From assembly GCA_900315315.1 (NCBI GenBank), contig OMYT01000020.1:1-64000 (forward strand): 64,000 nt of DNA, written 5' to 3'. The position numbers and the translations under genes are program-made. The stretch is from an uncultured Eubacteriales bacterium. GTDB taxonomy: Bacteria; Bacillota; Clostridia; Christensenellales; Aristaeellaceae. Of this stretch, positions 30,639-50,577 are shown in pieces (within the stretch, counting starts at the first letter, position 1; every line of letters starts with the position of its first letter). Below the pieces are notes generated by a model. It did not search any database, had not been told where the DNA came from, and saw only the letters and a program-made list of their open reading frames with translations.

Positions 30639-31790
30639 TCACTTCCCGCTCCAGGCGTTTTCGTATACCGTCACAACTTCTTCCTTCGTCGGTGTGTACA
30701 GGTTGTCCGCCATGCAGGCATCCTTCACTGCGAGTTCTGCCAGCACGCCGAAGTCCGCCGGCTGCACGCCGTTCATTTCCTTCAGTGTCCGTGGAATGCC
30801 CAGTTCCATACTCATGGTCCGAAGCTCCCGGACCAGCGTATACGGCCGCTCGTCCGGCAGAGAAAGCGCCCTGGAAATCCGCGGCATTCTTTCTCTGGCC
30901 TCAGCGCTGTGTTCCGCGTTAAACTCAACGACATAGGGGAGCAGCGTCGCGTTGCATACGCCGTGGGGCAAATTGCTGTGGCCGCCCAAAGCATGCGCCA
31001 TGGCGTGGACCATTCCGAGCCCCGCGTTGGAAAACGCCATCCCGGCTGAATACTCCGCATAGGCCATCTGCGTTCTGGCCTCTTCGTCCTGGCCGTTTCG
31101 TACAGCCCGCGGGAGCCATTTCCAGACAGTTTCCATCGCCCACAGGGCATCCCGGTCTGTCATCGGTGTGGCGTTTTTCGCCAGCAGCGCTTCGATGGCG
31201 TGCGTCAGCGCATCCAGGCCGGTGGATGCCGTCAGTTTCGGCGGCATGGACATCATGAGTTCGATATCGTTGACCGCGATCGTGACCATACAATTCGGAT
31301 CCACCATGGCCATTTTGCTGTGACGGTGCGGATCCGTAACAATATAAAAAGAAGTACATTCGCTGCCTGTACCGGCTGTCGTGTTTACCGCCACAATCGG
31401 GATGCCCTGTCTGGCCGACTTGTTGACGCCTTCATAATCCTCCACTTTGCCGCCGTTAGCCATGACAATGCTGACCGCCTTCGCGGTATCAATCGCGCTG
31501 CCGCCGCCTACGGCAACCAGCAGGTCAATCTGCAGCATCCGGGCCGCTGTAATGCAGTCGTTGACTACATCCACCGTAGGATTCGGCTGCACCTGATAAT
31601 AGACCGCATAGGACAGTCCCGCTTCTGTCAGCGCCTTTCCCACATAGTCCGCTGCGCCGGATTTGTACAGAAATCCGTCCGTCACGATCAGCGCACGGTG
31701 CAGATCCACCTTTCTCAGTTCCGGAATAAGCAATGAAACCGCGCCTTTCCCGAAAAAGCTGGTTCTGACTGAATTGACTCTGGACGGCAT
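30639..31790 (-). CDS. iron-containing alcohol dehydrogenase
   Basis: A 383-residue group III alcohol dehydrogenase (FucO/EutG/PduQ type). The NAD-binding loop GGGSAIDTAK and the Fe2+-binding residues in GLDALTHAIEA (Asp, His), MVHAMAHALGG (His) and LPHGVCNA (His) are present. It would reduce a short aldehyde (acetaldehyde, lactaldehyde or similar) to the alcohol and recycle NADH. It lies beside the microcompartment operon and is divergent from the PfkB kinase, so it is the likely NAD+-regenerating partner of the aldehyde dehydrogenase. It has no visible encapsulation peptide. The start follows AAGGAG. Confidence 0.88.
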   Translation of the reverse strand: MPSRVNSVRTSFFGKGAVSLLIPELRKVDLHRALIVTDGFLYKSGAADYVGKALTEAGLSYAVYYQVQPNPTVDVVNDCITAARMLQIDLLVAVGGGSAIDTAKAVSIVMANGGKVEDYEGVNKSARQGIPIVAVNTTAGTGSECTSFYIVTDPHRHSKMAMVDPNCMVTIAVNDIELMMSMPPKLTASTGLDALTHAIEALLAKNATPMTDRDALWAMETVWKWLPRAVRNGQDEEARTQMAYAEYSAGMAFSNAGLGMVHAMAHALGGHSNLPHGVCNATLLPYVVEFNAEHSAEARERMPRISRALSLPDERPYTLVRELRTMSMELGIPRTLKEMNGVQPADFGVLAELAVKDACMADNLYTPTKEEVVTVYENAWSGK

Positions 31791-31829
31791 AGCGCATTTC
31801 TCCTTCTGCGCGAAATACCTTCCGCTTCG

Positions 31830-31858
31830 TTGACTCCCGACAGATTATCTGCTACGAT
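31830..31858 (+). promoter_or_regulatory. promoter of the PfkB kinase gene
   Basis: TTGACT (31830-31835), 17-bp spacer, TACGAT (31853-31858). Confidence 0.65.
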
Positions 31859-31895
31859 ATTGTCAGAAAACAAGCAAAACCGGAGGGATTTCTCC

Positions 31896-32786
31896 ATGAA
31901 AATCGTGAATTACGGTTCCATTAATCTTGATCATGTTTACCAGGTTGATCATATTCTTCAGCCCGGTGAAACCCTGCTGGCCCGGGAGCAGAACCTGTTT
32001 TGCGGGGGGAAGGGGCTGAATCAGTCCATCGCGCTGGCCAAAGCCGGCGCAGAAGTCTTCCACGCGGGGGTGGTCGGTGAAGACGGGGAGATTCTTCTCA
32101 ATGCGCTCCGTACCGCGAATGTGGATATCCGTCACATCCGCCGCGCCGAAGGGGCCAGCGCCCACACAGTCATCCAGGTGGATCGGAACGGTCAGAACTG
32201 CATCATCGTCTTCAGCGGGGAGAACATGCATCCCTCGGAAGCGGACATCGACCGCATCCTGGAAGACTTCGGCCCGGAAGATGCGGTACTGATGCAGAAT
32301 GAGCTGTATAACACGCCTCTGATGATGCGCAAAGCTGCTGACAAAGGAATGACCATCATTTTCAATCCTTCTCCTATCAGTCAGGAAACGCTCAGCTATC
32401 CGCTGGAATGCGTCAGCTGGTTTCTGCTGAACGAGATCGAAGGCGAAGCGCTGACCGGGGAAACCAACCCGGGAAAAATCCTTGACAGTCTGGCATCCAG
32501 GTTTCCCCGCAGCAGTGTCGTGCTGACGCTGGGTAAAAACGGAGCCTGGGCAATGGACCAGGGACAGCGGTTCTTCCAGCCCGCCTTTGAGATCAAAGCG
32601 GTGGACACCACCGCGGCAGGCGATACCTTCACCGGTTTCTTCCTGGCCGCCGTCAGCAGTGGAATGCCGATCCCGGCAGCCCTTCGCCGCTGTGCTTTCG
32701 CTTCCTCCATTGCTGTGAGCCGGAAGGGAGCGGCGGATTCCATCCCCACTGCTGAAGAAGTTAGTTCAGCGTTTCCGGATCAATAA
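31896..32786 (+). CDS. ribokinase-like PfkB-family sugar kinase
   Basis: A 296-residue PfkB-family kinase of the ribokinase branch. The N-terminal substrate motif NYGSINLDHVYQVDHI and GGKGLNQSIALAKAG, and the C-terminal ATP/catalytic motif DTTAAGDTFTGFF (catalytic Asp) are clear. It would phosphorylate a pentose or related sugar at the terminal hydroxyl. The start at 31896 follows CGGAGGG. It runs towards the microcompartment operon and overlaps the last shell gene by 26 bp tail-to-tail. Its substrate may be another form of the sugar handled by the MtnK-type kinase. Confidence 0.88.
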   Translation: MKIVNYGSINLDHVYQVDHILQPGETLLAREQNLFCGGKGLNQSIALAKAGAEVFHAGVVGEDGEILLNALRTANVDIRHIRRAEGASAHTVIQVDRNGQNCIIVFSGENMHPSEADIDRILEDFGPEDAVLMQNELYNTPLMMRKAADKGMTIIFNPSPISQETLSYPLECVSWFLLNEIEGEALTGETNPGKILDSLASRFPRSSVVLTLGKNGAWAMDQGQRFFQPAFEIKAVDTTAAGDTFTGFFLAAVSSGMPIPAALRRCAFASSIAVSRKGAADSIPTAEEVSSAFPDQ

Positions 32787-33027
32787 TCCCGGCCACGCAC
32801 AAATCGCATGGAGGCAGTTTTTGTAGATCGGTCATCATCGCGGCTTCCATTCTGCCGATCAGATAAACCGTATCTCCGATCCCGGCCTGGTGAGTCCCGT
32901 CGGACGCAATCACCAGGCCTTTTGGTTTGCCGTCTGCCAGAAGGCGGATCACCAGCAGTTTGACGCCTGTCAGCGTCGGTGTTTTGACGGTGCAGACGAC
33001 GCTGCCTTCCACCCGGCCGATATTCAT
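32761..33027 (-). CDS. BMC-P shell vertex protein (EutN/CcmL family), 1 of 4
   Basis: An 88-residue EutN/CcmL/PduN-type pentameric vertex protein. It has the N-terminal pattern GRVEGSVVCTVKT, then LTGVKLLVIRLL, and the GIGDTVYLIG segment that corresponds to the family VGAGxGExV motif. Such pentamers cap the corners of a microcompartment shell. The start at 33027 follows AGGAGG; the in-frame extension upstream belongs to another gene's space. It is the last gene of the microcompartment operon and is the most diverged of the four vertex genes. Confidence 0.88.
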   Translation of the reverse strand: MNIGRVEGSVVCTVKTPTLTGVKLLVIRLLADGKPKGLVIASDGTHQAGIGDTVYLIGRMEAAMMTDLQKLPPCDLCVAGIIDPETLN

Positions 33028-33040
33028 TCCTCCGCCTCCT

Positions 33041-33331
33041 TTAATGGCACTGAACTGTCCGGCCCTGCCAGGTATAGGAATCCACAACGCCGCAGACGGT
33101 CAGTCCGGCGATGATTTCCTTGTCCCCGGTAATCATTTTGGCTGCGCCGCCGTCATTGTTTGTCAGGACAATATCCCCCACGCCAGCATCCGCCATATCG
33201 AGGGCCACCAGTTCCTCGCCGACAGTCCAGCCCTCAAGATTCAAATGCCGCACCTTCAGCAGCTTGTATCCCTGATAACGGCCGTATTTGATCGTGGACA
33301 CCACGGTGCCCGTCACCTTCGAAAGCTTCAT
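33041..33331 (-). CDS. BMC-P shell vertex protein (EutN/CcmL family), 2 of 4
   Basis: A 96-residue vertex protein beginning KLSKVTGTVVST, with YQGYKLLKVRHLNLEG and ALDMADAGVGDIVLTNNDGGAA (the VGAG-type motif). It ends in a short hydrophobic strand followed by WQGRTV. The start at 33331 follows GGAG and overlaps the stop of the upstream vertex gene by 4 nt, so translation is coupled. Shell corner role as for the other vertex proteins; separate paralogues in one shell may tune vertices or bind different cargo. Confidence 0.88.
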   Translation of the reverse strand: MKLSKVTGTVVSTIKYGRYQGYKLLKVRHLNLEGWTVGEELVALDMADAGVGDIVLTNNDGGAAKMITGDKEIIAGLTVCGVVDSYTWQGRTVQCH

Positions 33332-33627
33332 ACGTCTCCTTTTGTGAACACCCGTTTTCCGAGGATGTCCACATTGTCCACAATGCCGATGATCGTCGCA
33401 TCCACCGGTTTGTTGGTTGTCATTTCCGTCGCGCGGGAACTGGAGCCTCCGCACCACATCACGATCTCTCCCTCGCCGGCGCCTACCGTATCCACGGCAA
33501 TGAAGGGTGCGCCCTTCTCGCTGAATGTATCCATATCGATCGGAATGGCAACCAGAAGCTTCATGCCTTCCAGTCTGTCACATTTTCGCGTGGAAATCAC
33601 GCTTCCGATCACTTTTGCCAGTTGCAC
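33328..33627 (-). CDS. BMC-P shell vertex protein (EutN/CcmL family), 3 of 4
   Basis: A 99-residue vertex protein with the most typical family sequence of the set: QLAKVIGSVIST, LEGMKLLVAIPID, AVDTVGAGEGEIVMWCGGSSSR (VGAGxGExV and GSSxR) and IIGIVDNVDI. It overlaps the gene before it by 19 nt, and the next by 4 nt. It has no extra domain. Confidence 0.92.
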   Translation of the reverse strand: MQLAKVIGSVISTRKCDRLEGMKLLVAIPIDMDTFSEKGAPFIAVDTVGAGEGEIVMWCGGSSSRATEMTTNKPVDATIIGIVDNVDILGKRVFTKGDV

Positions 33628-33932
33628 GGATCTTCCTCCTCCGCTTTGTCATAAGTACGCTTTCCGCGCAGATCCACAGAATCGATAATTCCGTAAATCG
33701 TGTAGTCCGAAGCGAACTGCTTCGAGGTATCCGACTGGCGGGAGGAACTGCCGTAAGCGCCAAAGACCAGGTCTCCGACCCCCGCTCCCACATCGTCAAT
33801 CATGATCTGGTAATCGTCCTTCATTTCCATCGTGGAAAGATCCACGGTCTGCACAATCAGCATCTTGGCGTTCCGAAGCTTCTCGCTTTTGTTGGAGCTG
33901 ACCACATTGCCCGTTACGCGTCCCACAATCAT
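33609..33932 (-). CDS. BMC-P shell vertex protein (EutN/CcmL family), 4 of 4
   Basis: A 107-residue vertex protein: IVGRVTGNVVSS at the start, AKMLIVQTVDL, DDVGAGVGDLVFGAYGSSSR and IYGIIDSVDL. A short acidic tail (DKAEEEDPCNWQK) extends beyond the usual end. It is first in the run of four vertex genes and its ATG overlaps the LacI stop codon by 4 nt. It follows GAGGAACAGCC. Confidence 0.92.
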   Translation of the reverse strand: MIVGRVTGNVVSSNKSEKLRNAKMLIVQTVDLSTMEMKDDYQIMIDDVGAGVGDLVFGAYGSSSRQSDTSKQFASDYTIYGIIDSVDLRGKRTYDKAEEEDPCNWQK

Positions 33933-34954
33933 GGCTGTTCCTCCGGTACCTTTGTCAGCGCTTTTGTTGAATTCCGGATAATCAGTTTTCCGCCCAGCAG
34001 CAACTTCATGCAGGGATAATCCGGATGTCTCATCCGCCTGCGCAGGATGCTGACCGCCATCTCACCCATGGCGGAACGGGAAATCCGCATGGTCGTCAGG
34101 GCCGGCATCGTGGTCGCACTGAACGGAATATCATCGAAACCGATAATGGAGATATCCTCCGGGATGGAATATCCGGCTTCCCGGATTGCCTTGATTGCCC
34201 CGATCGCAATGGTATCATTGTCGCAGACCACTGCGCCGTGAGGAACATACTCCCCGCTCCGGATCATCCGGGCAAGATCCTCAAAAGCGCCGTCCACCGT
34301 CGGTTTGAGCAGGATCGGTTCCGGTTTTTCCAGGCCCAGACGTTCCAGCGCCGCCAGATAACCCTCATACCGTTCGTCACAGTTCCGGACCGCCCGGGAA
34401 AATTTGAAATAACCGATATCCCGGTGTCCGCATTCTGCCAGGTATTCCACCAGGCTTGCAGCCAGATTGGCATTATCCATCACCACGCAGTCCGTCCCGG
34501 GGTGATAGAGGTTCTGATCCAGCGCTACCAGCGGCACATCGATCAGATCCAGCAGGGGGAAGTCTTCTTTCGGCAGCTCTGTCGCGATCAGGATGACACC
34601 GTCCGGAGCCGCGTTCATCATATCACGGATCGTTGCGGTGGCCGTTTCCGGTTCGCAGTTGTACATCATCAGGTCATACCCGTAATGCCGGCACTCGCTT
34701 TCGATCCGGTCCACAATGGATGCAATGAATCCCTGGTTTTCCTCAAAAGCAATGCCGTGAACCCGGTATTTCAGGACCACAATTCTGAGGGGCCGTACGC
34801 TTTTCTTCCGGACAGACGGCGAATAGCCGCTTTCCTCCATCACGGAAAGAATACGCTTACGGGTTTCGTCAGAAACCCCTTTTTTGTTGTTGATCACGAG
34901 GGACACCGCGGCGGGAGAAACCCCGGCCAGTGCAGCAATCTCCCTGATGGTCAT
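33929..34954 (-). CDS. LacI-family regulator inside the microcompartment operon
   Basis: A 341-residue LacI-type repressor. The HTH (TIREIAALAGVSPAAVSLVINN) and hinge (SGYSPSVRKKS) are followed by a type-1 periplasmic-binding-like domain. It lies within the 18-gene operon between DhaL and the first vertex gene, which fits negative feedback on the operon. Candidate operators are the GTTTA-G-TAAAC palindrome and GTAAACAAA motifs between the operon promoter and the divergent importer promoter at 46.5-46.8 kb. The effector should be the sugar or its phosphate. The start follows GGGGAGTG. Confidence 0.9.
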   Translation of the reverse strand: MTIREIAALAGVSPAAVSLVINNKKGVSDETRKRILSVMEESGYSPSVRKKSVRPLRIVVLKYRVHGIAFEENQGFIASIVDRIESECRHYGYDLMMYNCEPETATATIRDMMNAAPDGVILIATELPKEDFPLLDLIDVPLVALDQNLYHPGTDCVVMDNANLAASLVEYLAECGHRDIGYFKFSRAVRNCDERYEGYLAALERLGLEKPEPILLKPTVDGAFEDLARMIRSGEYVPHGAVVCDNDTIAIGAIKAIREAGYSIPEDISIIGFDDIPFSATTMPALTTMRISRSAMGEMAVSILRRRMRHPDYPCMKLLLGGKLIIRNSTKALTKVPEEQP

Positions 34955-34987
34955 CCTGTTTCACTCCCCTGCTTCGAATCCCCTGTG

Positions 34988-35584
34988 TTACTGTTTTCCC
35001 CGATATTCAGCATACCCCTTCATCAGCAGCGCCGCGACAGCCGCACCGGGATCCAGCAGTTCCCGCGATGCTTCGCCCCGGATCGCCATCCGGCCGTGCT
35101 TTGCCAGCATTCCTTTTGTTCCCTCAAAGGCGGACCAGGCGATCTCCGCCGTTTCCTCCGGTGTTTTCCCGGCCTTCAGTGCCTGCACCGCAGGCAGCAT
35201 TCCGTCCAAAAACGTCTTTTCACCCGGCTGTGCTTTTCCGCGGTTCTGTACGCCGTCATACCAGGCTTCGAAGAAATCCGCGTCCGCCGCTTCCTCCTGT
35301 CCTTTCAGCTGTTTTCCCGCGTTCATCAGGCCGCTGGCCATCAGCGTTCCCATCGTCGAGGGAACCGCTGTCGCCATGGCTTTCCCCGCCTGATAGGCAA
35401 GCTTCCCCACGTCTGTCACGTCGCTTGCGGAAACCGCCTCAGCCGCGGCGGCAAAGCCGTCGCTCATTGTCAGGCCCAGATCGCTGTCCCCCACCACGCT
35501 GTCCAGTTCAATCAGCCATTCCTTCTTTTCGTTCATCAGCGCAGCCCAGGCGGCAAGTAAGCCTTTCAGTTCTGCTGCGTTCAT
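34988..35584 (-). CDS. dhaL: DhaL-type dihydroxyacetone kinase subunit
   Basis: A 198-residue DhaL-like nucleotide-binding subunit. The Mg-ADP site is seen as VVGDSDLGLTM, where most DhaL proteins read GDGDHG; the Asp residues are kept but the His is Leu. The later segment STMGTLMASGLMNAGK corresponds to the SxGGxSGxL nucleotide loop. It partners DhaK encoded upstream. No DhaM (PTS donor) is in the window, so the pair may use ATP directly and may act on another ketose such as erythrulose. The start at 35584 has GGAG 8 nt upstream; the ATG 6 bases earlier is too close to it. Confidence 0.88.
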   Translation of the reverse strand: MNAAELKGLLAAWAALMNEKKEWLIELDSVVGDSDLGLTMSDGFAAAAEAVSASDVTDVGKLAYQAGKAMATAVPSTMGTLMASGLMNAGKQLKGQEEAADADFFEAWYDGVQNRGKAQPGEKTFLDGMLPAVQALKAGKTPEETAEIAWSAFEGTKGMLAKHGRMAIRGEASRELLDPGAAVAALLMKGYAEYRGKQ

Positions 35585-35653
35585 CGTCATTTCTCCGTTC
35601 CTTCCATATATGATCCCCGGCATGGTGACCGGTGGGATAAGTCCGCTTCCTGC

Positions 35654-36670
35654 TTACAGCTGAAACTGTTTAAAGAAAGGCGTATCGACCGGAGCCGCCA
35701 GCCAGCCCTTCAGTTCGTCATCCAGCCGCAGCAGCGAAATCGATGCGCCGGCCATTTCCATGGAAGTGGCAAACTCTCCGACATAGGTATGCCAGATGCT
35801 GATTCCCTTCCCGTCAAGGATCTGTTTGACCCGCCGGAACATCACATACTGTTCCTCCAGCGGTGTGGCGCCGAGGCCGTTGATCAGCACGGCCACTTCA
35901 TCCCCGGCCTTGTAAGGAATATCGCTGAGGATCGGCTCAAGCATCTCATCCGTCATCTCGTCTGCGGTTTTGAGCTTGCCCCGCCGGATACCCGGTTCGC
36001 CGTGGATCCCCATGCCGATCTCCATTTCGTCTTCGCCGATCTCGAAGCTGGGATGTCCGACCCGCGGCACCGTGCAGGAGCTCAGCGCCACGCCCATGGT
36101 CCGGACATTGGCGCACGCTTTTTCCGCGGCTGCCTTCACCTGATCCAGATCCCTGCCTTCCGCCGCAGCCGCGCCGGCGCATTTGTAGACAAAGAAAATC
36201 CCTGCCACGCCGCGGCGCTTGTTCGGTTCCCCTTCCGCGGAGGGGGCGGCCGAAGCGACATCCTCGCCGGCCACAACGCTCTCGACCCGGATGTCTTCTT
36301 CCATATCCGCCATTTCCGCGGCCATGTCAAAGTTGAAGATATCTCCGTTGTAGTTGCCATAAATATACAGCACGCCGGCGCCCTGGTCAATCTCCTTCGT
36401 CACCGCCAGCATCTGCTCGGCGCTCGGAGACTGGAATACGTCGCCGATGGAGCAGCCGTCCAGCATGCCCTTGCCGACATAGCCCAGAAACAGCGGAAGA
36501 TGACCGGAACCTCCGCCGGTTGCGATGCCCACTTTGCCTGCCTGCTTATGCTTCGTCACAAGGCAGTGAAGATCGCCGTTCACGCACATCAGGTCGTCCG
36601 GATGGGCCGCGTAGATTCCTTCCAGCATCTCCGGAATAAAGCGTTCAGGCGTGTTGATGATTTTCTTCAT
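35654..36670 (-). CDS. dhaK: DhaK-type dihydroxyacetone kinase subunit
   Basis: A 338-residue DhaK. The substrate-binding elements are visible: GGGSGHLP (the usual motif is GSGHEP; the His is kept, Glu is Leu), NYNGDIFNF with the catalytic Asp, and GIHGEPG with the histidine that forms the covalent hemiaminal with dihydroxyacetone. It binds the ketose and DhaL carries the nucleotide. The Glu-to-Leu change beside the active-site His could alter substrate choice. The start at 36670 follows GGAGGAG. In the pathway it may phosphorylate a ketotriose or ketotetrose, or salvage dihydroxyacetone. Confidence 0.9.
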
Positions 36671-36700
36671 GGTTTCTCCTCCGATCACAGACAGCCTTTT

Positions 36701-37123
36701 TTACAGACAACCTTTTTTGATAATGAAACACGCATAAAGAGCATTCTCGCCTGTTGCCACCGTGGCATACGCTTTCTTTGCACGGTCATAGAAATCAAAG
36801 CGCCCGATTTTTTCAAATTTGACGCCGGGCTGATGCTTCTGGCAGATTTCATCCAGTACAGCCCAGATCGGCGGGTCTCCGTCCAGACCGCCCTGCGGAT
36901 CCATCACAGTCACCGGAGCGGGTACATACTGATCCAGCGGGAACAGCTGCAGAATCGCATCCAGCAGTTCCGCACCGCCATGTCCGTCACAGCGAACGCA
37001 CCGCTGTCCCATGGACTGTGCCGGAAAATTGAGATCGCCGATCACCAGTTCATCCCCGTGGCCCATTTCCGCCAGGATTTTCAGCAGTTCCGGCGTCAGG
37101 AGGGGAGAAATACCCTTCAACAT
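36701..37123 (-). CDS. FucU/RbsD-family sugar mutarotase
   Basis: A 140-residue RbsD/FucU mutarotase. It has the N-terminal LLTPELLKILAEMGHGDELVIGD pattern with the active-site His, and the C-terminal ATGENALYACFIIKKG block that forms the decamer active site. It interconverts sugar anomers so that the kinase or isomerase gets its preferred form. A second homologue is at 50.8 kb; both share the GHGDEL and CYACIATGE-type ends. Its presence fits an operon in which a reducing sugar enters unmodified, then is phosphorylated at the anomeric carbon by the MtnK-type kinase. Confidence 0.9.
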   Translation of the reverse strand: MLKGISPLLTPELLKILAEMGHGDELVIGDLNFPAQSMGQRCVRCDGHGGAELLDAILQLFPLDQYVPAPVTVMDPQGGLDGDPPIWAVLDEICQKHQPGVKFEKIGRFDFYDRAKKAYATVATGENALYACFIIKKGCL

Positions 37124-37165: not shown

Positions 37166-37441
37166 TTATGCCTGAGGCAGAATAGCCTCTACTTCCTCAT
37201 GGGGCCTTGGAATCACATGCACGCTGACCAGTTCACCCACGCGCTTGGCCGCTGCACCGCCCGCTTCCACGGCAGCTTTCACGGCGCCCACATCGCCCCG
37301 AACCATCACGGTTACCAGTCCGCCGCCCACGCGTTCCTTGCCGATCAGGTGTACATTGGCCGCTTTCACCATCGCGTCCGCCGCCTCAATCGAGCCGACA
37401 AGTCCTTTTGTTTCCACCATTCCCAATGCCAGCAGTTCCAT
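37166..37441 (-). CDS. BMC-H shell hexamer protein, copy B
   Basis: A 91-residue single-domain BMC-H protein (PduA/CcmK type). Family marks are [25 protein letters not shown], and [24 protein letters not shown], where the GGG lies near the pore. Hexamers of this fold tile the flat faces of the shell. It is nearly identical to the upstream copy over about 85 residues but lacks that copy's Lys-rich tail. The start follows AGGAGA. High identity between the two suggests recent duplication. Confidence 0.95.
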
Positions 37442-37472: not shown

Positions 37473-37769
37473 TTATTTTCCTTTTGTTCCTGTCGCGATC
37501 TTCGGAAGAATATCTTCCACTTCCTCATGGGGCCGCGGAATCACATGCACGCTGATCAGTTCACCCACGCGCTTGGCCGCTGCGCCGCCCGCTTCCACGG
37601 CAGACTTCACGGCGCCGACATCGCCCCGGACCATCACGGTCACCAGTCCGCCGCCCACATGCTCCTTGCCCACAAGATGGACGTTGGCAGCCTTCACCAT
37701 CGCGTCCGCCGCCTCAATGGACCCGACCAGTCCTCTGGTCTCGATCATTCCCAATGCTTCCTGTGCCAT
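37473..37769 (-). CDS. BMC-H shell hexamer protein, copy A
   Basis: A 98-residue single-domain BMC-H shell protein. It differs from copy B by a handful of residues (for example LVGKEH for LIGKER), plus a C-terminal tail KIATGTKGK. Together they appear to be the only facet proteins in the locus: no tandem BMC-T gene is present. The start follows AAAGGAG. Both follow directly after the aldehyde dehydrogenase gene in the operon. Confidence 0.95.
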
Positions 37770-43398: not shown

Positions 43399-44195
43399 AC
43401 CTTCTCCACCTCCCCGATCAGCTCCCGGAGCTGCACCGCGTTCTCCAGGCCGGTATACCGCCGGATCATCTGTTCATCCGGTTCATAGGCGCCGAAGCAA
43501 CTTCCCGGGAAAGCACCCATGCGGGCGCGCACCACATGGGATACCATAAAGTGGGGCACATCCGCTTTGACCTCGTTCCGGCTGAACCATCCGTCGTCCA
43601 CGATCGCCTCCGCCGTCACAATCACCCGCTTCGCGGCGCGGGTCATCAGCACATCGTCATACTTCGGGCCTTCGATCAGGGCGTTTCCGCAGGCATCCGC
43701 CTTCTGAACATGAATGACCGCCACATCGGGCCGCAATGCTTTGACCGCCGCCAGCTTTTCCCCGCCGAACGGATCCGCCACGTCCGCAAAATAGTCGTTC
43801 ACCTTGCGCAGGTCCGAAATCTGCAGCCCGCGGACCGGCATGAAAGGAATGCCGTACGCGCCGGCCCTCAGAGCGGAGATGACTGTATAGCAGGCATGCT
43901 CGTTCGCGATGACCTGTCCCGCCTGAACCGCCCGGCGGTAGTGCTGCGCCAGCCCGTACTCCGTCTCCAGGCTGATGAACCCGGCGTCCACACTGTCCAG
44001 GCATCCACCCAGCGCGAGCAGGTCTACGTCCAGCCCGCCGGCTGTTTTGATCAGCCGCAGATGCTGCTTCCGCAGGCGGATCAGTTCCAGCACCGCTTCC
44101 ATCGGCGCCCGGTTCAGCGTGTTTCCGCCCAGGGCAATCAGCGCGCCGTCCTGAACAGAAGCGGCAGCCTCCCGCATCGAGCAGAGCTTATCCAT
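43395..44195 (-). CDS. CoA-transferase-family protein, subunit A-like
   Basis: A 266-residue family-I CoA-transferase alpha-like subunit (GctA/IpdA type). Recognisable segments are DGALIALGGNTLNRAPM near the N-terminus, KTAGGLDVDLLALGG, the VIHVQKADACGNALIEGPKYDD block, and AEAIVDDGWFS. The true start is at 44195, after GGAAGG; the longer frame overlaps the flavoprotein gene. It must work with subunit B, to which it is coupled by 4 nt. Possible partners are the acyl-CoA made in the compartment, but the substrate is not shown. Confidence 0.82.
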   Translation of the reverse strand: MDKLCSMREAAASVQDGALIALGGNTLNRAPMEAVLELIRLRKQHLRLIKTAGGLDVDLLALGGCLDSVDAGFISLETEYGLAQHYRRAVQAGQVIANEHACYTVISALRAGAYGIPFMPVRGLQISDLRKVNDYFADVADPFGGEKLAAVKALRPDVAVIHVQKADACGNALIEGPKYDDVLMTRAAKRVIVTAEAIVDDGWFSRNEVKADVPHFMVSHVVRARMGAFPGSCFGAYEPDEQMIRRYTGLENAVQLRELIGEVEKV

Positions 44196-44220: not shown

Positions 44221-45552
44221 CTATTTCGCCGCATTCGCCGCAATATGCACCGCATCCCATACCGAAGCAAACGGCGGCGCATACGCCAGATCCGTCATCC
44301 CCAGTTCCTCCGTGGTCATTCCGTTATGGATCGCCACGGCAATGATATCCGTCCTCATCACCGCGTTTCGCTTTCCGCAGACATTGGCCCCCAGCAGTTT
44401 CCTCGTCCGGGTGTCATAGATCAGTTTGATTGTGAGCTTCACCGGATCCGGATAATAAGCCGGATGGTCAAAAGCCGTCACCAGCTTTGTTTTGTAATCC
44501 ATGCCCAACCGCCTGGCGTCCCGCTCCGTCATGCCCGTGCGGCCGAATTCCATTTCAAAGATCTTGATGGCGGCAGTCCCCAGTGCCCCGATAAACTTCG
44601 TATGCCCGCCGGCCATGTTTTCCCCGGCGATCCTGCCGCATTTGTTTGCCACCGTTCCCAGGGCGATGAACGAATCCTCCTGCATCAGCCGGTGATAAAC
44701 GGTCGCGCAGTCCCCGGCTGCCCAGATATCTTCGATAGAAGTCCGCATTTCCCGGTCCACCAGGATTGCCCCGTTACGGATCATGCGGATACCCGTATCC
44801 CGGAGGAAACCCGTCGCCGGCCGCACACCGACCGCCATCACCACGATATCGCAGCTCACGTCGCCGCCGCCGGTCCTGACGGTCCGGGAACGCCCGGCTT
44901 CCTCGATGGCTGTCACAGGGCTGCGGACCATCACTTTTACGCCGTTGCGTTCCAGTTCCTGTGCCGCCAGCTCCGAAAACTCGGGCTCAAAGGTGTTCAG
45001 AATCCTGTCCCCGCCTTCAATCAGCGTTACCTGTCGTCCGAGCCGGACCAGCGCCTCCGCCATCTCCACCCCGATGTATCCGCCGCCGATAACCGCCACA
45101 TGATGCACACCCTCCAGGTGGACGATCTCCCGGAGCACCAGCCCATCCTCCATGCTCCGCAGGCAGAAAACGGAAGGCAGATCCGCGCCGGGAAGCTTCG
45201 GGATCACGCTGTTGCATCCCACCGCGATCATCAGTTTGTCATAAGCATCCTCAAACTCTCTGGCGGATTTCAGATCCCTGACCAGCACCCTTTTCGCTTC
45301 CGGATCCACCCGGAGCACCTCATGATGCAGCCGGCAGTCAATCTTCATTTCCCGGTACTGCTCCTGCGTCCGTGCAATCAGTTTGCCGGGTTCCGTGTTA
45401 AAATCCCCGATATAATATGGAAGGCCGCATGCCCCGTAGGACAGAAACCCGCCTTTCTCATAAACGGTAATCTCCGCGTCGGGCTGCATCCGGCGAAGCT
45501 TCGAAGCCGCGGACATCCCGGCGGCTACTCCTCCGATTACAATCGCCTTCAT
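44221..45552 (-). CDS. pyridine nucleotide-disulfide oxidoreductase, CoA-disulfide-reductase-like
   Basis: A 443-residue FAD/NAD(P)H oxidoreductase. The N-terminal FAD motif is VIGGVAAGMSAA; the redox Cys lies in SYGACGLPYYIG at about residue 43, as in CoA-disulfide reductase and NADH oxidase; the second Rossmann motif is VIGGGYIGVEMAEAL; DIWAAGDCA is the FAD-binding end. A C-terminal dimer domain follows. In the operon it may keep CoA or thiols reduced, or oxidise NADH. The start at 45552 follows AAGGAGAG. Microcompartment loci rarely carry this family, so its role is open. Confidence 0.87.
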   Translation of the reverse strand: MKAIVIGGVAAGMSAASKLRRMQPDAEITVYEKGGFLSYGACGLPYYIGDFNTEPGKLIARTQEQYREMKIDCRLHHEVLRVDPEAKRVLVRDLKSAREFEDAYDKLMIAVGCNSVIPKLPGADLPSVFCLRSMEDGLVLREIVHLEGVHHVAVIGGGYIGVEMAEALVRLGRQVTLIEGGDRILNTFEPEFSELAAQELERNGVKVMVRSPVTAIEEAGRSRTVRTGGGDVSCDIVVMAVGVRPATGFLRDTGIRMIRNGAILVDREMRTSIEDIWAAGDCATVYHRLMQEDSFIALGTVANKCGRIAGENMAGGHTKFIGALGTAAIKIFEMEFGRTGMTERDARRLGMDYKTKLVTAFDHPAYYPDPVKLTIKLIYDTRTRKLLGANVCGKRNAVMRTDIIAVAIHNGMTTEELGMTDLAYAPPFASVWDAVHIAANAAK

Positions 45553-45583
45553 GTTCCGCTCTCCTTCCATCCCAACTTTTTAC

Positions 45584-45614
45584 TAATCTCCAGTCACTAG
45601 CCACTAGCCACTAA
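45584..45614. repeat. short TAGTGGC-type tandem repeat
   Basis: CTAGCCA/CACTAGC units run between the flavoprotein start and the aldolase end, abutting the aldolase stop codon. They resemble the second half of the repeat at 10.8 kb. Confidence 0.5.
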
Positions 45615-46495
45615 ACGCTCCCTCCGAGCCTCGCAATCACCGCCCGCGTAATCTGCCGCAGTTCCTCCTCGCTCAGCGCGTCCGATCCGCCTGCGCAGCC
45701 GCAGGGGGAGGATCCGGATACCTGCCCGTAGGTTTTCAGGCCGCTGTCCGGGTTAGTGACAGGGCTTCCCGCCACAACGTCCACCGTATTGCTGGGTCTC
45801 GGGGCGCAGGCCGGCACCCCGCCGGAGGTGATTCCCATTTTTTCCCGCAGGCGAATCAGCTCGCTGACCTGGTCGCAGCTCAGCACATTGGCCTTGCCGA
45901 TGATGTTGCCAGTGTACATGATTACCATGGCATAATGCTCCGTGGATTCCAGCCGGTACCATGCCTCCGTCAGCGAGGTTCCCCAGGCTACCGCCCCATG
46001 GTTGGCCAACAGCAGGGCATTATAGTCCCGTACATAGGGCGCGATGGAATCCGGGATTCCCTGGGAACCCGGCGCTTCGTAGTGAACGCAGGGAACGGTC
46101 CCCAGGTTCACCAGCGCCTCCGGATAGATGGCCCGGTCCAGGCTCATCCCCGCGATGGCGAAGGATGTCGATATCGGCGGGTGCGCGTGACAGACTGCCA
46201 TCGCGTCGCTTCTTTCCTGATAGATCCGCAGATGCATCTTCACTTCGCTGGAGGGACCCTTCTCCCCCTGGCTGATCACGGTTCCGTCCAGCCGCATCTT
46301 GACCATCTCATCCTCGGACATGAAACCCTTCGACACGCCGGTCGGCGTCGTCATGATGGTGTCCTCATCCACTTTGCAGGAGATGTTGCCGTCGTTGGCT
46401 GCGACGAAATTCTTCATATACATGCGCCGTCCGATCTCCACGATCATCTTCCGGGCTTCGGCGTCAGTCGGGTACCGTTTCAGTTCATTCATCAT
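45611..46495 (-). CDS. class II aldolase (fuculose-phosphate-aldolase-like) with C-terminal encapsulation peptide
   Basis: A 294-residue zinc aldolase of the FucA group. Motifs are NDGNISCK, SSEVKMHLRIY (catalytic Glu), VCHAHPPISTSFA (two Zn His), ANHGAVAWG (third Zn His). FucA is about 215 residues; here a linker with several Cys and Gly (CGCAGGSD) is followed by ALSEEELRQITRAVIARLGG, an amphipathic helix typical of an encapsulation peptide. It would cleave a ketose-1-phosphate to DHAP plus an aldehyde (acetaldehyde from 5-deoxyribulose-1-phosphate). It is the first gene of the operon, about 60 bp behind a strong promoter; of its two adjacent ATG codons I used the first. Confidence 0.9.
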   Translation of the reverse strand: MMNELKRYPTDAEARKMIVEIGRRMYMKNFVAANDGNISCKVDEDTIMTTPTGVSKGFMSEDEMVKMRLDGTVISQGEKGPSSEVKMHLRIYQERSDAMAVCHAHPPISTSFAIAGMSLDRAIYPEALVNLGTVPCVHYEAPGSQGIPDSIAPYVRDYNALLLANHGAVAWGTSLTEAWYRLESTEHYAMVIMYTGNIIGKANVLSCDQVSELIRLREKMGITSGGVPACAPRPSNTVDVVAGSPVTNPDSGLKTYGQVSGSSPCGCAGGSDALSEEELRQITRAVIARLGGSV

Positions 46496-46557
46496 GGTTT
46501 CATTCCTCGTTTGCGTTTTGAATTGTTGACGGTCCGGTCACAGTTTGCCACTTGTGT

Positions 46558-46586
46558 ATTGTAAACAAAACAAGCTGAACTGTCAA
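46558..46586 (-). promoter_or_regulatory. promoter of the microcompartment operon
   Basis: Minus-strand TTGACA (46581-46586), 17-bp spacer, TACAAT (46558-46563). GTAAACAAA overlaps the -10, a candidate operator. Confidence 0.75.
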
Positions 46587-46748
46587 TAGACAAACAAGTC
46601 ATTTTTATCTTTCGTTTAGTAAACAAACTGTAAAGTTTTTGTCCTGTTTGTCATTATTTTGTGAAAAACGCTTCATTTTTTCCATTTTTGATTCTTTTCC
46701 TATTTAATGCAACTTCCGGCACAGAGATAAATATTCATAAAACATTGC
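46587..46748. promoter_or_regulatory. shared control region with GTTTA-G-TAAAC palindrome
   Basis: Between the two divergent promoters lies the perfect palindrome GTTTAGTAAAC (46614-46624) plus further ACAAACAAG, AAACAAACTG and TGTTTGTC motifs. This AT-rich tract of about 160 bp has no gene in it. The LacI protein of the operon is the natural candidate to bind here. Confidence 0.5.
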
Positions 46749-46777
46749 TTGACAAACTACTTGACATGCAGTATACT
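46749..46777 (+). promoter_or_regulatory. promoter of the RbsBAC-type importer
   Basis: TTGACA (46749-46754), 17-bp spacer, TATACT (46772-46777). CTTAACAAAA follows just downstream of the -10. Confidence 0.75.
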
Positions 46778-46831
46778 CTGCTTAACAAAAAAGCGGGTGT
46801 TTCCCGCGGGAACAAAATAGGAGGTTATACC

Positions 46832-47938
46832 ATGAAGAAAGTAATCGCTGTGGTCCTCGCTCTGATGCTGGCGCTGTCCATGCTGACAGCCGCAAGTGCC
46901 GAGACCGCCAACCCCGTCGCCGGCAAGAAAGTTGCGTACATCATGCTGCTTCCCTCTGCCACCATTTTCCAGATGTGGGCCAACTCCTGTCAGGACCTGT
47001 GCAAGGCCCTGGACGTAGAGTGCGACGTGCACTTCTGCGGCGGTGACTTCAACAAATGGCAGGATACCATTTCCGCCTGCGCCGCCGCCGGCTATGACGG
47101 CATCCTCGTCAGCCACGGTAACCAGGATGGTTCCTACACCTTCCTGAAGGGCATCACCGAGCAGTATCCGGATATGAAGATCGTCTGCTTCGATACCCAG
47201 TTCTATACCGACGGTGAGTATCAAAAGCTCCCCGGCGTCACCCAGCTGTTCCAGCAGGATAAGTCCCTGGTCACCGTTCTGCTCGACGCCATGATCGACA
47301 AGTTCGGTGAGGGCGTCCGCCTGATCAAGGTCTGGCGCGGCCCGAACTACAACAGCCCCTTCGATCGCCGTGAAGTCGGCTGGCAGGAATATGAATCCGC
47401 CGGCAAGATCAAGACCGTCGGCGAAGTACAGCCCCTGCAGGATACCCTGGATTCCGCCAACTCCGTCATGGCCGCTTATCTGCAGTCCGTCAACCGTGAC
47501 GATGTGGACGGCGTCGTGGTTTACTACGATCTGTACGGCCAGGGCGTCTACAACGCCATCTCCGAAGACTCCAACTTCAACGGCGACAAAGCGCTGCCCA
47601 TGGCTTCCGTTGACATTGACCAGGTCGACGTAACCAACATGCAGAATCATCCGGAAATCTGGATGGCCGCCGGCACCACCGACTGGACCATGAACGGCGA
47701 GATCGCGATGCGCCTCCTGCTGCTCGAAATGGCCAATGAATATGACAAGATCTACGATCCCGCCAGCCAGCAGTACGGTGTGGACGTGGTCGAAGTACCC
47801 GGCACCGCCATCATGGCAACATCCCTGAAGGACACCTCCACCGTGGAGAACCTCGGCGAGATCGCCGGCGAGACCTACGGCAACCTGAGCTATCTGAGCG
47901 TGGCTGACTGGATGCCCGCCGATCTGCTCCATAAGTAA
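46832..47938 (+). CDS. ribose-type sugar-binding protein (periplasmic-binding type 1)
   Basis: A 368-residue RbsB-like solute-binding protein. The signal peptide (MKKVIAVVLALMLALS...ASA) has an AxA site and no lipobox Cys. The mature protein shows the type-1 pattern: KKVAYIMLLPSATIFQMWA, AAAGYDGILVSHGNQDG, and VDGVVVYYDLYGQG in the second lobe. The ATG at 46832 is preceded by AGGAGG; a longer in-frame ORF starting at 46661 would lie over the promoter. It is divergent from the microcompartment operon, so its ligand is probably the sugar that the compartment degrades. Confidence 0.92.
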   Translation: MKKVIAVVLALMLALSMLTAASAETANPVAGKKVAYIMLLPSATIFQMWANSCQDLCKALDVECDVHFCGGDFNKWQDTISACAAAGYDGILVSHGNQDGSYTFLKGITEQYPDMKIVCFDTQFYTDGEYQKLPGVTQLFQQDKSLVTVLLDAMIDKFGEGVRLIKVWRGPNYNSPFDRREVGWQEYESAGKIKTVGEVQPLQDTLDSANSVMAAYLQSVNRDDVDGVVVYYDLYGQGVYNAISEDSNFNGDKALPMASVDIDQVDVTNMQNHPEIWMAAGTTDWTMNGEIAMRLLLLEMANEYDKIYDPASQQYGVDVVEVPGTAIMATSLKDTSTVENLGEIAGETYGNLSYLSVADWMPADLLHK

Positions 47939-47962
47939 TTTCTCAATCGTCATTCCTTACCG

Positions 47963-48000
47963 GGAGGGTCGGAGCCCTTACTCCGGCCCTCCTTTTCTTC
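47963..48000 (+). terminator. terminator between binding protein and ATPase
   Basis: GGAGGGTCGGAG (47963-47974) and CTCCGGCCCTCC (47981-47992) form a long stem followed by TTTTCTTC. It should make the binding protein more abundant than the downstream ATPase and permease. Confidence 0.75.
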
Positions 48001-48027
48001 AGAACACTGATGAGAAGAGGGGCGTCC

Positions 48028-49545
48028 ATGGAAAGAATCAAACTCGGAACCCGGAAAGTCTCCATCGAGTTTCCCGGCGTCAAAGCGCTGACGGACGTGG
48101 ATTTCGAGGTGACCACCGGGGAGATCCATGCCCTGGTTGGGGCCAACGGCGCCGGAAAGTCTACCCTGATGAAGGTGCTGGCCGGCGCCAATCCGGACTA
48201 TACGGGCGAAGTCTATCTGAACGGCGATACGGTTGAACTCCGTTCCACCCTGGCGGCCAAGAAGCTCGGCATCCAGATCGTGTATCAGGAAGTCGACATG
48301 GCGCTGATCCCCACGCTGTCGGTGGCGGAAAACGTCATGCTGAACGATACTGTCATGCACGGCAAAACCATCATGAACTGGCGCAGCCTGTACAAACGGG
48401 CCGCCGAGGTTCTGCAGCGGCTGAACATTGAAGTGGATGTTCATAAGCTTGTTCAGGATCTGTCCCTGGCGCAGAAGCAGATGGTGCTGATTGCGCGGGC
48501 CATTGTCAACGAGTGCAATTTCCTGATCCTGGACGAGCCTACAGCGCCTCTTTCCGATACGGAAACGGAGGAGCTGTTCAAGCTCGTCAAACATCTCCAG
48601 GCCACCGAGAACATCGCCATCATCTTTATCTCCCACCGGATCAACGAAATCATCCGGATCTGCGAGCGCTATACTGTCATGCGCAACGGCCGGGTCGTGG
48701 ATACCACGGAGATCACGCCGCAGACTACCACCCGGGAGATCGTCGAGAAGATGCTCGGCCGGTCCTTTGAGGAAAACTTCCCGAAGGAAGTGGCGGAGAT
48801 CGGCGAGATCATCTTTGAGCTCGATCATCTGTCCGGCGCGGACGGCAGGGTGAACGATGTTTCTCTCTACGCGCGCAAGGGCGAAATCGTCGGCGTCGCA
48901 GGCTTGGTGGGTGCGGGAAAATCCGAGCTTTGTAAAACCATCTTCGGCGCCTATGAAAAGACCGGCGGCAGGGTCATCATGGGTGGCCGGGAGCTGACGA
49001 TCAAAAATCCTTCCCAGGCGCTGAAAAACCGGATCGCCCTGGTGCCCGAGGAGCGCCGCAAAGAGGGCGTCCTGGTCGGCGAGACAGTCAGCTTCAACAT
49101 TTCGGCTGCCTCGCTGGACAACTTCTGCACCGCTTCTTTCATCAACAAGCGAAAGATCGATCAGTGTGCGGAGGATTATGTTCAGAAACTGGGCATCTCC
49201 ACGCCATCCGTCAAGCAGTTTGTGAAAAACCTCTCCGGCGGCAACCAACAGAAAGTGGCCGTCGCGAAATGGATGGCCGCGGACTGCGATCTCTATATTT
49301 TTGATGAGCCGACCAAGGGCGTTGACGTCGGTGCGAAGCAGGATATCTTCCACCTGATCTGCGACATCGCCAAACGCGGGAACAGCGTCATCTACGCCTC
49401 CTGCGAGAACTCCGAGCTTCTTTCTATTACCGACCGGATCTATGTGCTCTTCGACGGTCAGGTGATGGCGGAGCTGGAAACTTCAAAAACCTCGGAAGAC
49501 GAGATCATGCATTACGCCGTGGGCAACCGCGCCCAATACGCTTAG
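48028..49545 (+). CDS. sugar ABC transporter ATPase, RbsA/MglA type
   Basis: A 505-residue fusion of two ATPase domains. The first has Walker A GANGAGKST, a degenerate signature LSLAQKQM and Walker B FLILDEPTA; the second has GLVGAGKSE, LSGGNQQKV and YIFDEPTKG. Only some sites in such proteins are active. It powers uptake through the RbsC-type permease that follows. The second ATG is chosen because GAGGGG precedes it; the first ATG at 48010 has none. Confidence 0.92.
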   Translation: MERIKLGTRKVSIEFPGVKALTDVDFEVTTGEIHALVGANGAGKSTLMKVLAGANPDYTGEVYLNGDTVELRSTLAAKKLGIQIVYQEVDMALIPTLSVAENVMLNDTVMHGKTIMNWRSLYKRAAEVLQRLNIEVDVHKLVQDLSLAQKQMVLIARAIVNECNFLILDEPTAPLSDTETEELFKLVKHLQATENIAIIFISHRINEIIRICERYTVMRNGRVVDTTEITPQTTTREIVEKMLGRSFEENFPKEVAEIGEIIFELDHLSGADGRVNDVSLYARKGEIVGVAGLVGAGKSELCKTIFGAYEKTGGRVIMGGRELTIKNPSQALKNRIALVPEERRKEGVLVGETVSFNISAASLDNFCTASFINKRKIDQCAEDYVQKLGISTPSVKQFVKNLSGGNQQKVAVAKWMAADCDLYIFDEPTKGVDVGAKQDIFHLICDIAKRGNSVIYASCENSELLSITDRIYVLFDGQVMAELETSKTSEDEIMHYAVGNRAQYA

Positions 49546-49560
49546 GCAGGAGGAATCAAC

Positions 49561-50577
49561 ATGACGCAAATAACCCCCAAACCCAATATGGCTGCTATGC
49601 CGAAGCAGAAAAAAAGCGCCGGTAAAATCCTGATCGATTGGGCAGCCGTGATTACCCTGGTCGTGAGTGTGATCGCCTTCACCCTGATCAAGGGGAACCG
49701 GTTCATGTCCGCGAACAACATGATCAACATTCTCCGGGCCATGTCCATTACCACGGTCTTCGGCATCGCCGCCACGGTCACCATGGCGCCGGACGGATTT
49801 GACATGTCCGCCTGTACGCTGGCCAGCTGCTCCGCCTACGTGTTTGTCAGTATGTACCTCTGGCACGGGCTGCCCCTTCTTGTCTGTGTCCTGATTACCA
49901 TCCTGGTCACGCTTATCATGTATCAGCTGACCATGTTCCTGATTCTGGTCTGCAAGATCCCGGACATGCTGGCCACCTGCGCTCTCATGTTCGTCCATCA
50001 GGGCCTCGGGCAATGGTATATCGGCGGCGGCGCGGTATCCACCGGCATGCGGACCCCCGCCGGCGCAGATCCCAAGCGGATTCAGCTGGGCGAGGATTTC
50101 CTGGCCATCGGCAAGGAGCCCTGGCTGATCATTATCATGCTGGCCTGTGTACTGATTGCCTATATCTTCCTTGAGCATACCAAGCACGGCCGCTTCATTT
50201 ACGCCATGGGCGGAAACAAACAGGCTGCCAAGCTTTCCGGTATAAACGTCAAAGCCTACCGGTACCTGGCCGGTATGATTACCGCGGTGTTCATCGCCAT
50301 CGGCGGTATCCTGGTTTCCTCCCGCGGCAGTTCCGCGCAGGTTATGTGCTGCGATAACTATCTGATGCAATCCCTTGCCGCGGTCTTCGTCGGCCGGACG
50401 GTCGGCGGCGCTGAAAAGCCAAACGCTTTAGGCACGATGATCGGTGCGCTGCTGGTCTCCACGCTGGAAAATGGCCTGACCATCTGCGCCGTCCCCTTCT
50501 ATGTCCTTCCCGCCGTCAAAGGCGCTGTGCTGGCACTGGCACTGGTTGCTGCTTACGCGACCAAGAAGGAACAGTAA
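49561..50577 (+). CDS. sugar ABC transporter permease, RbsC type
   Basis: A 338-residue RbsC-like permease with about ten transmembrane segments. It begins with a basic stretch (PKQKKSAGK), and has the conserved turns FGIAATVTMAPDGFDMS and FVGRTVGGAEKPNA. It begins 15 bp after the ATPase gene and the terminator follows. It imports the sugar bound by the protein encoded at 46.8 kb. Confidence 0.92.
   Translation: MTQITPKPNMAAMPKQKKSAGKILIDWAAVITLVVSVIAFTLIKGNRFMSANNMINILRAMSITTVFGIAATVTMAPDGFDMSACTLASCSAYVFVSMYLWHGLPLLVCVLITILVTLIMYQLTMFLILVCKIPDMLATCALMFVHQGLGQWYIGGGAVSTGMRTPAGADPKRIQLGEDFLAIGKEPWLIIIMLACVLIAYIFLEHTKHGRFIYAMGGNKQAAKLSGINVKAYRYLAGMITAVFIAIGGILVSSRGSSAQVMCCDNYLMQSLAAVFVGRTVGGAEKPNALGTMIGALLVSTLENGLTICAVPFYVLPAVKGAVLALALVAAYATKKEQ

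Follow-up and report, generated by a model that had tools for sequence, protein, structure and literature searches.

Gene content of the locus

The 64,000-nucleotide stretch analysed here (the window; positions 1 to 64,000 of contig OMYT01000020.1, assembly GCA_900315315.1) belongs to an uncultured Eubacteriales bacterium of the Aristaeellaceae, whose genome comprises 4.26 Mb on 197 contigs and is 89% complete and 3.8% contaminated. It carries 18 successive minus-strand genes, from an aldolase gene (46495) down to the last shell vertex gene (32761), in which bacterial microcompartment (BMC) shell genes stand together with genes for an MtnK-type kinase, an MtnA-type isomerase and a class II aldolase. 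The original prediction, made from the sequence alone, had described this set, and every gene that it named for it is present; it left unnamed two CoA-transferase-fold subunits (42682-44195) and a protein resembling CoA-disulfide reductase (CoADR; 44221-45552).

In the direction of transcription, the first gene encodes the class II aldolase (45611..46495; PF00596, 163 bits), which ends in a linker plus helix of ~77 residues that resembles an encapsulation peptide. Behind it follow the CoADR-like flavoprotein of the CoA-disulfide-reductase/NADH-oxidase kind (44221..45552; NF007123, 551 bits, cut-off 458), CoA-transferase-fold subunits A (43395..44195) and B (42682..43398), an MtnK/DrdK-type aldose 1-kinase (41383..42594), an MtnA/DrdI-type aldose-1-phosphate isomerase (40260..41363), the phosphotransacylase PduL (39349..40245; PF06130, 218 bits; NF011652, 225 bits, cut-off 209) and a CoA-acylating aldehyde dehydrogenase (AldDH; 37829..39286; NF011927, 636.6 bits, cut-off 403), the last two each with an N-terminal stretch resembling an encapsulation peptide. 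The set continues with two BMC-H shell proteins (37473..37769 and 37166..37441; PF00936, 104 bits each), an RbsD/FucU mutarotase (36701..37123; closest model L-fucose mutarotase, 133.6 bits, cut-off 141), DhaK (35654..36670; PF02733, 407 bits), DhaL (34988..35623; PF02734, 107 bits; a nearer start is likely), a LacI-family regulator (33929..34954; PF00356 and PF13377; RbsR-like) and four BMC-P vertex proteins (33609..33932, 33328..33627, 33041..33331 and 32761..33027; PF03319, 80, 100, 65 and 60 bits). Starts were moved downstream of the listed open reading frames for AldDH (39286, MALTKEE...), MtnA (41363), the CoADR-like protein (45552), CoA-transferase-fold subunit A (44195) and the binding protein of the importer described below (46832).

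With BMC-H and BMC-P genes over the Pfam cut-offs and a core of CoA-acylating AldDH and PduL, two hallmarks of a metabolosome are present. Searching the whole genome, 89% complete, with PF00936 revealed no BMC-H beyond these two and no BMC-T. As the original prediction had stated, no glycyl-radical or B12 enzyme is found among the 18 genes, each of which matches another family. The divergent RbsBAC-type importer that it had proposed is also there, on the plus strand, as a monosaccharide ATP-binding cassette (ABC) importer of the ribose/xylose/arabinose class. It consists of a sugar-binding protein (46832..47938; PF13407, 51 bits), an ATPase (48010..49545; nearest to xylose, arabinose and ribose types, none at the cut-off) and a permease (49561..50577; PF02653, 90 bits; nearest to the ribose type, below its cut-off).

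Conservation of shell genes beside mtnK

We searched a sample of 300 genomes out of the larger family at an E cut-off of 1e-30 and found MtnK in 27 of them, the window's included, at 68-100% identity and with nothing weaker at this threshold. BMC-H or BMC-P genes adjoin mtnK in 17 of the 26 same-family loci fetched around the other copies. Three loci (L033, L037, L052) lie on short contigs that end near the cluster; the shell genes missing from L033 are on another contig of its genome, together with DhaK, DhaL, LacI and BMC-P. The remaining six (L046, L049, L050, L051, L053, L054) have mtnK-mtnA without shell genes, five of them with the same importer, and no BMC-H match was found anywhere in the genomes of these six.

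A species-wide scan of 84,980 species representatives yielded 289 encoded relatives, of which the best 80 were kept. Shell genes lie in the stretch at 34 of these best 80 loci, or 35 of 81 counting the window. Since 25 of the 26 family loci recur among the best 80, with 16 shell loci common to both sets, 18 of the 34 shell loci come from outside the family set. The 34 include Clostridia, one Treponema (L069) and two Anaerolineae (L116, L122), and the named isolates among them are Anaerotruncus colihominis and Colidextribacter sp. OB.20. The two Anaerolineae loci were rejected as members of the same type, as they carry another kind of AldDH (29-36% identity to the AldDHs compared, in the case of L116) and a tail-less aldolase; they are still counted among the 35 shell loci. 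Judged by these gene neighbourhoods, the combination of shell genes with mtnK is conserved and not a product of chance.

Kinase, isomerase and tailed aldolase

Kinase and isomerase both exceed the NCBI equivalog cut-offs for MtnK (TIGR01767, 413.7 bits, cut-off 275) and MtnA (TIGR00512, 411.6 bits, cut-off 279; 2yrf at E 1e-102). In an alignment to 2olc, off which the positions were counted, the window MtnK keeps the HGD aspartate D234, the twin arginines R345/R346 and the DXE residues D251/E253 of 5-methylthioribose (MTR) kinases, all of them invariant in the ten sequences aligned, window included; their catalytic roles are described in the excerpts of PMC2194712. Compared across loci, neither enzyme has a shell-associated extension like the tails of the cargo enzymes.

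The solved structures nearest to the aldolase are 6voq, DrdA (6btd), 6vop and then FucA, the DrdA match reaching E 1.4e-23 and that of 6voq being slightly better. In the aldolase tree, shell-linked and soluble mtnK-linked aldolases fall together, while three aldolases from GRM5-like loci stand apart; the soluble mtnK-linked aldolase of L109 also falls outside. The label FucA-type in the original prediction is therefore imprecise, the enzyme belonging to the mtnK-linked clade and not with the three fucose-type BMC aldolases included.

Aldolases of shell loci extend 55-102 residues beyond the catalytic domain and end in a short helix-like stretch, SEEELRQITRAVIARLGG in the window, and the N-termini of AldDH and PduL begin with similar stretches (MALTKEELERLTDQIVRSL and MNEQELRGVIQRMVLAEMARL, respectively). 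The tail, taken as 50-110 residues, was scored in the 45 scan loci with an aldolase match above 200 bits, the other 35 of the 80 having no qualifying aldolase; it is present in all 30 shell loci versus 4 of 15 shell-less ones (Fisher p 1.3e-7, with relatives counted as independent). In L099, a locus without shell genes, the aldolase seems to be fused to MtnK in one open frame, and this locus was scored as having no tail. Three of the four tailed shell-less exceptions are Treponema whose genomes have a second locus that combines shell genes with DeoC, AldDH and PduL; in one of them both loci share a contig. Along the aldolase tree the shell changes six times and the tail five times. From its sequence, the aldolase looks like encapsulated cargo and like the signature enzyme of the compartment.

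Lineage of the AldDH and DeoC-fed shell loci

In a tree of 59 AldDH rows, 25 of the 27 rows from mtnK loci (24 of 26 distinct loci, L047 and L084 being the same record) group with three Treponema sequences and L154 at an SH-aLRT of 100. Outside this group fall the 28 other sampled AldDHs of the same class and the mtnK loci L106 and L130; L116, L122 and the near-duplicates L031, L033, L036 and L043 were omitted. The window AldDH is 65-66% identical to the AldDHs of the Treponema loci, and its best match among 290 other class-sample genomes is L154 (56%). Loci were read for six of the 29 sampled same-class rows (L183-L188, with shorter stretches for L184 and L187). That of L154, L183, holds a tail-bearing DeoC, while L185, L186 and L188, here termed GRM5-like, have a class II aldolase and what we take to be a glycyl-radical activase, recognised by eye from its motifs.

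The shell loci of the three Treponema genomes share a common order: tailed DeoC (two copies in L148), PduL, BMC-P, AldDH and a PduS-like protein, so named by similarity to proteins scanned in relatives, and then a block of BMC-T, BMC-H, BMC-P, BMC-H and BMC-P, with a further DeoC-like gene in L148 and L149. This SPU-like order, from PduL to BMC-P, recurs in the shell part of the mtnK loci L072 and L078, relatives of the window. A search of 17 family genomes found DeoC in 16, with 28 matches; 20 of these copies, including that of the window genome, which lies on another contig, were inspected by eye and none has a helix-plus-linker tail.

This gene order and the two trees suggest a mixed origin, in which DeoC-fed compartments supplied shell and AldDH, and the soluble dihydroxyacetone phosphate (DHAP) shunt supplied the aldolase. 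To judge by their gene content, a single shell seems to work for both kinds of aldolase in some Treponema. In L106 and L130, mtnK, mtnA and aldolase are found with a different AldDH lineage and shell gene order, which looks like a second, independent coupling of the pathway to a shell.

Accessory genes and flanking regions

The CoA-transferase-fold pair and the CoADR-like gene occur in 19-20 of the 35 shell loci versus 1-2 of the 46 others, where they lie on the broken contigs L059 and L062; the CoADR-like gene taken singly gives 20 of 35 versus 1 of 46. Both subunits match PF01144, subunit A with 5mzw_A as its best PDB match (E 8e-42) and subunit B with the B subunits of the same family. The closest structures of the pair are 5mzw and its kin, followed by 1poi and 6co6/6con, which we take to be AibAB, GctAB and IpdAB, respectively. 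Where subunit B of 5mzw (5mzw_D) has a Cys, that of the window has Ile, and LNIPGG or LNIGGG is kept in nine of nine aligned sequences. The Cys is the residue that AibB employs; in GctB it is a neighbouring Glu. That the function is linked to CoA is our guess.

The original prediction had joined the mutarotase and DhaKL to the pathway. Both are present, but since FucU is found in just 18 and DhaKL in just 19 of the 35 shell loci, they are better regarded as accessories. An iron-dependent alcohol dehydrogenase (Fe-ADH; 30639..31790, minus strand; PF00465/PF25137; FucO-like, 383 bits, below the cut-off of 523) lies on the same strand as the 18 genes. It may be a separate unit in the window because a plus-strand gene for a ribokinase-like PfkB kinase, assigned by similarity (31830..32786), intervenes between it and the last BMC-P gene. 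In three relatives (L039, L040, L043) the Fe-ADH gene directly follows the BMC-P genes; it occurs in 9 of the 35 shell loci, many of whose stretches end soon after the shell genes. Its probable role is the recycling of NAD.

Between the two divergent units lies a promoter region (46496..46831) with GTTTAGTAAAC-like candidate operators. Promoter-like hexamers occur on both strands between 46400 and 46800 (three observed versus 0.7 in shuffles), and the 10-mer GTTTAGTAAA recurs, on either strand, in 7 of 13 divergent promoter regions compared. The recurrent GTTTAGTAAAC-like sites are suggestive only as candidate LacI operators.

The window PduL has an extra C-terminal domain with a weak match to TIGR02536 at 244-297, and by eye the end of a separate 218-residue protein of A. 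colihominis (L120:16807-17463) resembles it. RuBisCO-like proteins (PF00016) are encoded in or just past the mtnK-shell clusters of an Oscillospiraceae (L134:13306-14448) and a Treponema (L069:17887-19035) metagenome-assembled genome. Further along the window, at 50838-56015 on the minus strand, a second RbsD/FucU-like gene is followed by genes for an aldo-keto reductase, a zinc-dependent alcohol dehydrogenase, an FGGY kinase and an aldolase of the class II fructose-bisphosphate type, probably a separate sugar operon. L058, a locus of the same genus (contig of genome G295), comes from a record titled sheep rumen.

Discussion

We lean towards the view, built on comparative sequence analysis, that the locus encodes a metabolosome of the DeoC-fed SPU lineage in which DeoC has given way to a DHAP-shunt aldolase, the imported sugar most likely being 5-deoxyribose. 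That compartment and pathway are coupled seems hardly in doubt to us; acetaldehyde is a likely identity of the aldehyde, and 5-deoxyribose, with somewhat more reserve, the probable main sugar. The ABC importer would bring in a 5-deoxy-aldopentose, most likely 5-deoxyribose, which MtnK would phosphorylate at C1 and MtnA isomerise. Both enzymes are placed in the cytosol because they lack tails of the kind seen on the cargo enzymes. Their product, the ketose-1-phosphate, would then enter the shell and be cleaved by the tailed aldolase to DHAP and acetaldehyde, AldDH and PduL would convert acetaldehyde to acetyl-CoA and acetyl-phosphate, and Fe-ADH would reoxidise NADH. The route in the original prediction, from C1 phosphorylation through isomerisation and aldol cleavage to AldDH and PduL, is consistent with family membership and comparative genomics.

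In the excerpts of PMC8217296, DeoC yields acetaldehyde and glyceraldehyde-3-phosphate. Those of PMC6079011 describe DrdA as cleaving 5-deoxyribulose-1-phosphate to acetaldehyde and DHAP, with a preference for acetaldehyde, and DrdK as taking 5-deoxyribose and MTR with similar kcat/Km, and neither ribose nor fucose; drd clusters can also hold sugar transporters and a fucose-mutarotase homologue. Since a swap from DeoC to DrdA keeps acetaldehyde as product, and the presence of an importer and of this kinase suggests that the sugar arrives unphosphorylated, 5-deoxyribose is the substrate that needs the fewest assumptions. Enzyme families, shell genes, the tails of aldolase, AldDH and PduL, the joint occurrence of tail and shell, and the lineage of the AldDH are indicated by the sequence; encapsulation, direction of flux, aldehyde and sugar we infer. 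5-Deoxyribose had already been proposed by the original prediction; the grouping of the AldDH with DeoC-fed loci, which release acetaldehyde, adds an argument for it as the probable substrate, as does the apparent sharing of one shell by both aldolases in some Treponema.

Several observations weigh against this reading or limit it. The aldolase scores below every NCBIfam cut-off, and its best model there is a 3-oxo-tetronate 4-phosphate decarboxylase. Fe-ADH and mutarotase most resemble proteins of the fucose pathway. The window MtnK lacks the W-loop Trp, which caps the 5-substituent in B. subtilis MtnK according to the excerpts of PMC2194712, and has M350 in place of B. subtilis L345; because the pocket differs in these positions, specificity at the 5-position is uncertain. 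On the aldolase tree, the association of tail and shell reduces to three well-supported independent contrasts, of which two agree and none opposes; this is not significant, and with just three contrasts the statistical weight of the association is small. The fourth tailed shell-less exception, L089 (the same record as L046), has no BMC-H in its 84%-complete genome, and none was found in the genome of L037 (G227), whose fragment carries CoA-transferase and CoADR genes as shell loci typically do. The AlphaFold2 model of the aldolase is poor overall (mean pLDDT 60), too weak for a fold search and used for the tail alone, where it has a very-low-confidence linker (235-274) and a helix (276-290). 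The hydrophobic moment was discarded as a test of the tail, since it does not discriminate: when all 18-residue stretches from 13 window proteins are ranked, the aldolase tail comes out at 0.87, and the C-terminus of MtnK and the N-terminus of DhaK rank above it. The AldDH tree stems from a quick search that raised long-branch warnings, including one for L154, and leaves L106 and L130 outside. The lineage suggests acetaldehyde but does not prove it. Enzyme activities, expression and shell assembly are predictions from the genes.

The same pathway and shell could serve mainly MTR, or a mixture of 5-substituted riboses, and release methylthioacetaldehyde. The families of kinase and isomerase take their names from MTR, and both enzymes score above the corresponding cut-offs; DrdK handles both sugars about equally well, and the excerpted E. 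coli DHAP-shunt papers name methylthioadenosine as well as 5'-deoxyadenosine; excretion of MTR by E. coli is mentioned in the excerpts of PMC6079011. However, the AldDH falls among those of DeoC-fed loci, in which acetaldehyde is released, no sulfur-handling gene was recognised among the 18 genes, and the kinase has no Trp to cap the methylthio group, which makes MTR an unlikely main substrate in our judgement.

A somewhat less probable alternative is that the locus is merely a catalogued SPU subtype, SPU4, in which mtnK and mtnA are bystanders to the breakdown of 2-deoxyribose-5-phosphate. The published survey, in the portions of its text available, labels A. colihominis SPU4 without naming a strain. 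In strain DSM 17241 all BMC-H genes are confined to a relative of the window locus, which has a tailed class II aldolase, a PduS-like protein, BMC-T, two BMC-H and three BMC-P; AldDH and PduL were not detected in the scan of this locus. It also encodes a DeoC-like protein with an N-terminal tail (L136:13481-14269), missed by PF01791 and found through a PDB sequence search. Its DFVKTS motif has lost the lysine, which all six other aligned sequences retain. That lysine forms the Schiff base in DeoC, and the protein is possibly inactive as an aldolase. The relative is probably what the survey files as SPU4, not certainly so because no strain is named, and the type may therefore be partly catalogued under another proposed function. 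The original prediction had allowed for a match to an already described type: A. colihominis does have a relative of the locus, but no proven SPU substrate was found.

The window AldDH, too, is of the SPU-like lineage. Against the bystander role of mtnK and mtnA stands the lack, among the 18 window genes, of DeoC and RpiB, which the excerpts of the catalogue (PMC8217296) give as the shared SPU enzymes, besides the untailed DeoC of the window genome and the lysine missing from the A. colihominis protein. DeoC was seen next to mtnK in one of the 35 shell loci, a count weakened by the 15 of 34 scan stretches that stop within 1.5 kb past the last shell gene, where the DeoC-like gene of A. colihominis sits.

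A common aldose, D-ribose for example, with DHAP and glycolaldehyde as its cleavage products, would suit the ribose-type permease, the RbsR-like regulator, the RbsD/FucU mutarotase and the ribokinase-like neighbour. We consider it improbable, as DrdK is inactive on ribose and known 5-deoxyribose clusters also carry sugar transporters and a fucose-mutarotase homologue (both in the excerpts of PMC6079011). A compartment of the PVM-like or GRM5 type for L-fucose or rhamnose, with lactaldehyde as the aldehyde, was considered on account of the tailed PF00596 aldolase, the mutarotase near the L-fucose model and an Fe-ADH nearest to lactaldehyde reductase, and is very improbable given that the 18 genes include no fucose or rhamnose isomerase or ketose kinase, that the regulator is LacI and not DeoR, and that aldolase and AldDH trees set it back, with the aldolase outside the three GRM5-like ones and the AldDH not in the group to which those loci belong.

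Compared with known systems, the window shares with SPU metabolosomes, as described in the excerpts of PMC8217296, the AldDH lineage, the feeding by an aldolase and a probable acetaldehyde core; unlike them it has no DeoC (pfam01791), RpiB (pfam02502), PduS-like protein or BMC-T, and is fed through MtnK, MtnA and a class II aldolase. The drdK-drdI-drdA pathway and DHAP shunt have kinase, isomerase, class II aldolase, sugar transporter and FucU-like mutarotase in common with it, whereas the aldolase tail, the shell and the AldDH and PduL genes are peculiar to the window; the word 'microcompartment' is absent from PMC6079011. With PVM and PVM-like loci the window shares the pfam00596 class II aldolase, and from these and GRM5 it differs in kinase and isomerase, regulator, aldolase clade and AldDH group. 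Among the matches listed from open-licence PMC texts, preprints not included, no paper links MtnK/MtnA or 5-deoxyribose to a microcompartment, and no such text pairs 'microcompartment' with 'mtnK', '5-deoxyribose' or 'DHAP shunt'. One paper contains both 'bacterial microcompartment' and 'methylthioribose', for an MTR kinase gene beside pduU/pduV in Acetobacterium woodii which its excerpt calls unrelated; 'methylthioribose' is absent from the text of the 2014 predecessor PMC4207490 and from the main text of PMC8217296, supplements lying outside this comparison. What seems to be new is a shell of DeoC lineage refitted with a DHAP-shunt aldolase, an arrangement that sequence comparison indicates to be real and conserved.

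In a broader, tentative view, which persuades us not quite as much as it leaves us doubtful, the SPU shell core would serve as an all-purpose organelle for acetaldehyde whose front ends can be exchanged, with DeoC for 2-deoxyribose-5-phosphate and the DHAP-shunt aldolase for 5-deoxyribose, both feeding it from separate loci in some Treponema. The 5-deoxyribose front end would have taken over completely in the lineage of the window, for by-products of radical-SAM enzymes, and rumen and gut communities would harbour a dedicated organelle for such imported by-products. On this view some loci filed as SPU would have another signature enzyme than the published one.

If the 5-deoxyribose metabolosome proposed here is real, it provides a testable correction for part of the SPU class, whose substrate is only predicted. 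The occurrence of the same kinase, isomerase, aldolase and importer with and without a shell in related genera offers a natural experiment on the benefit of a shell, and relatives exist in named isolates, A. colihominis DSM 17241 (complete genome) and Colidextribacter sp. OB.20 (scaffolds). A salvage pathway described as soluble would then have moved into an organelle at least once and probably twice, in the SPU lineage and in that of L106 and L130, and 5-deoxyribose would be eaten as a carbon source, beyond its mere detoxification.

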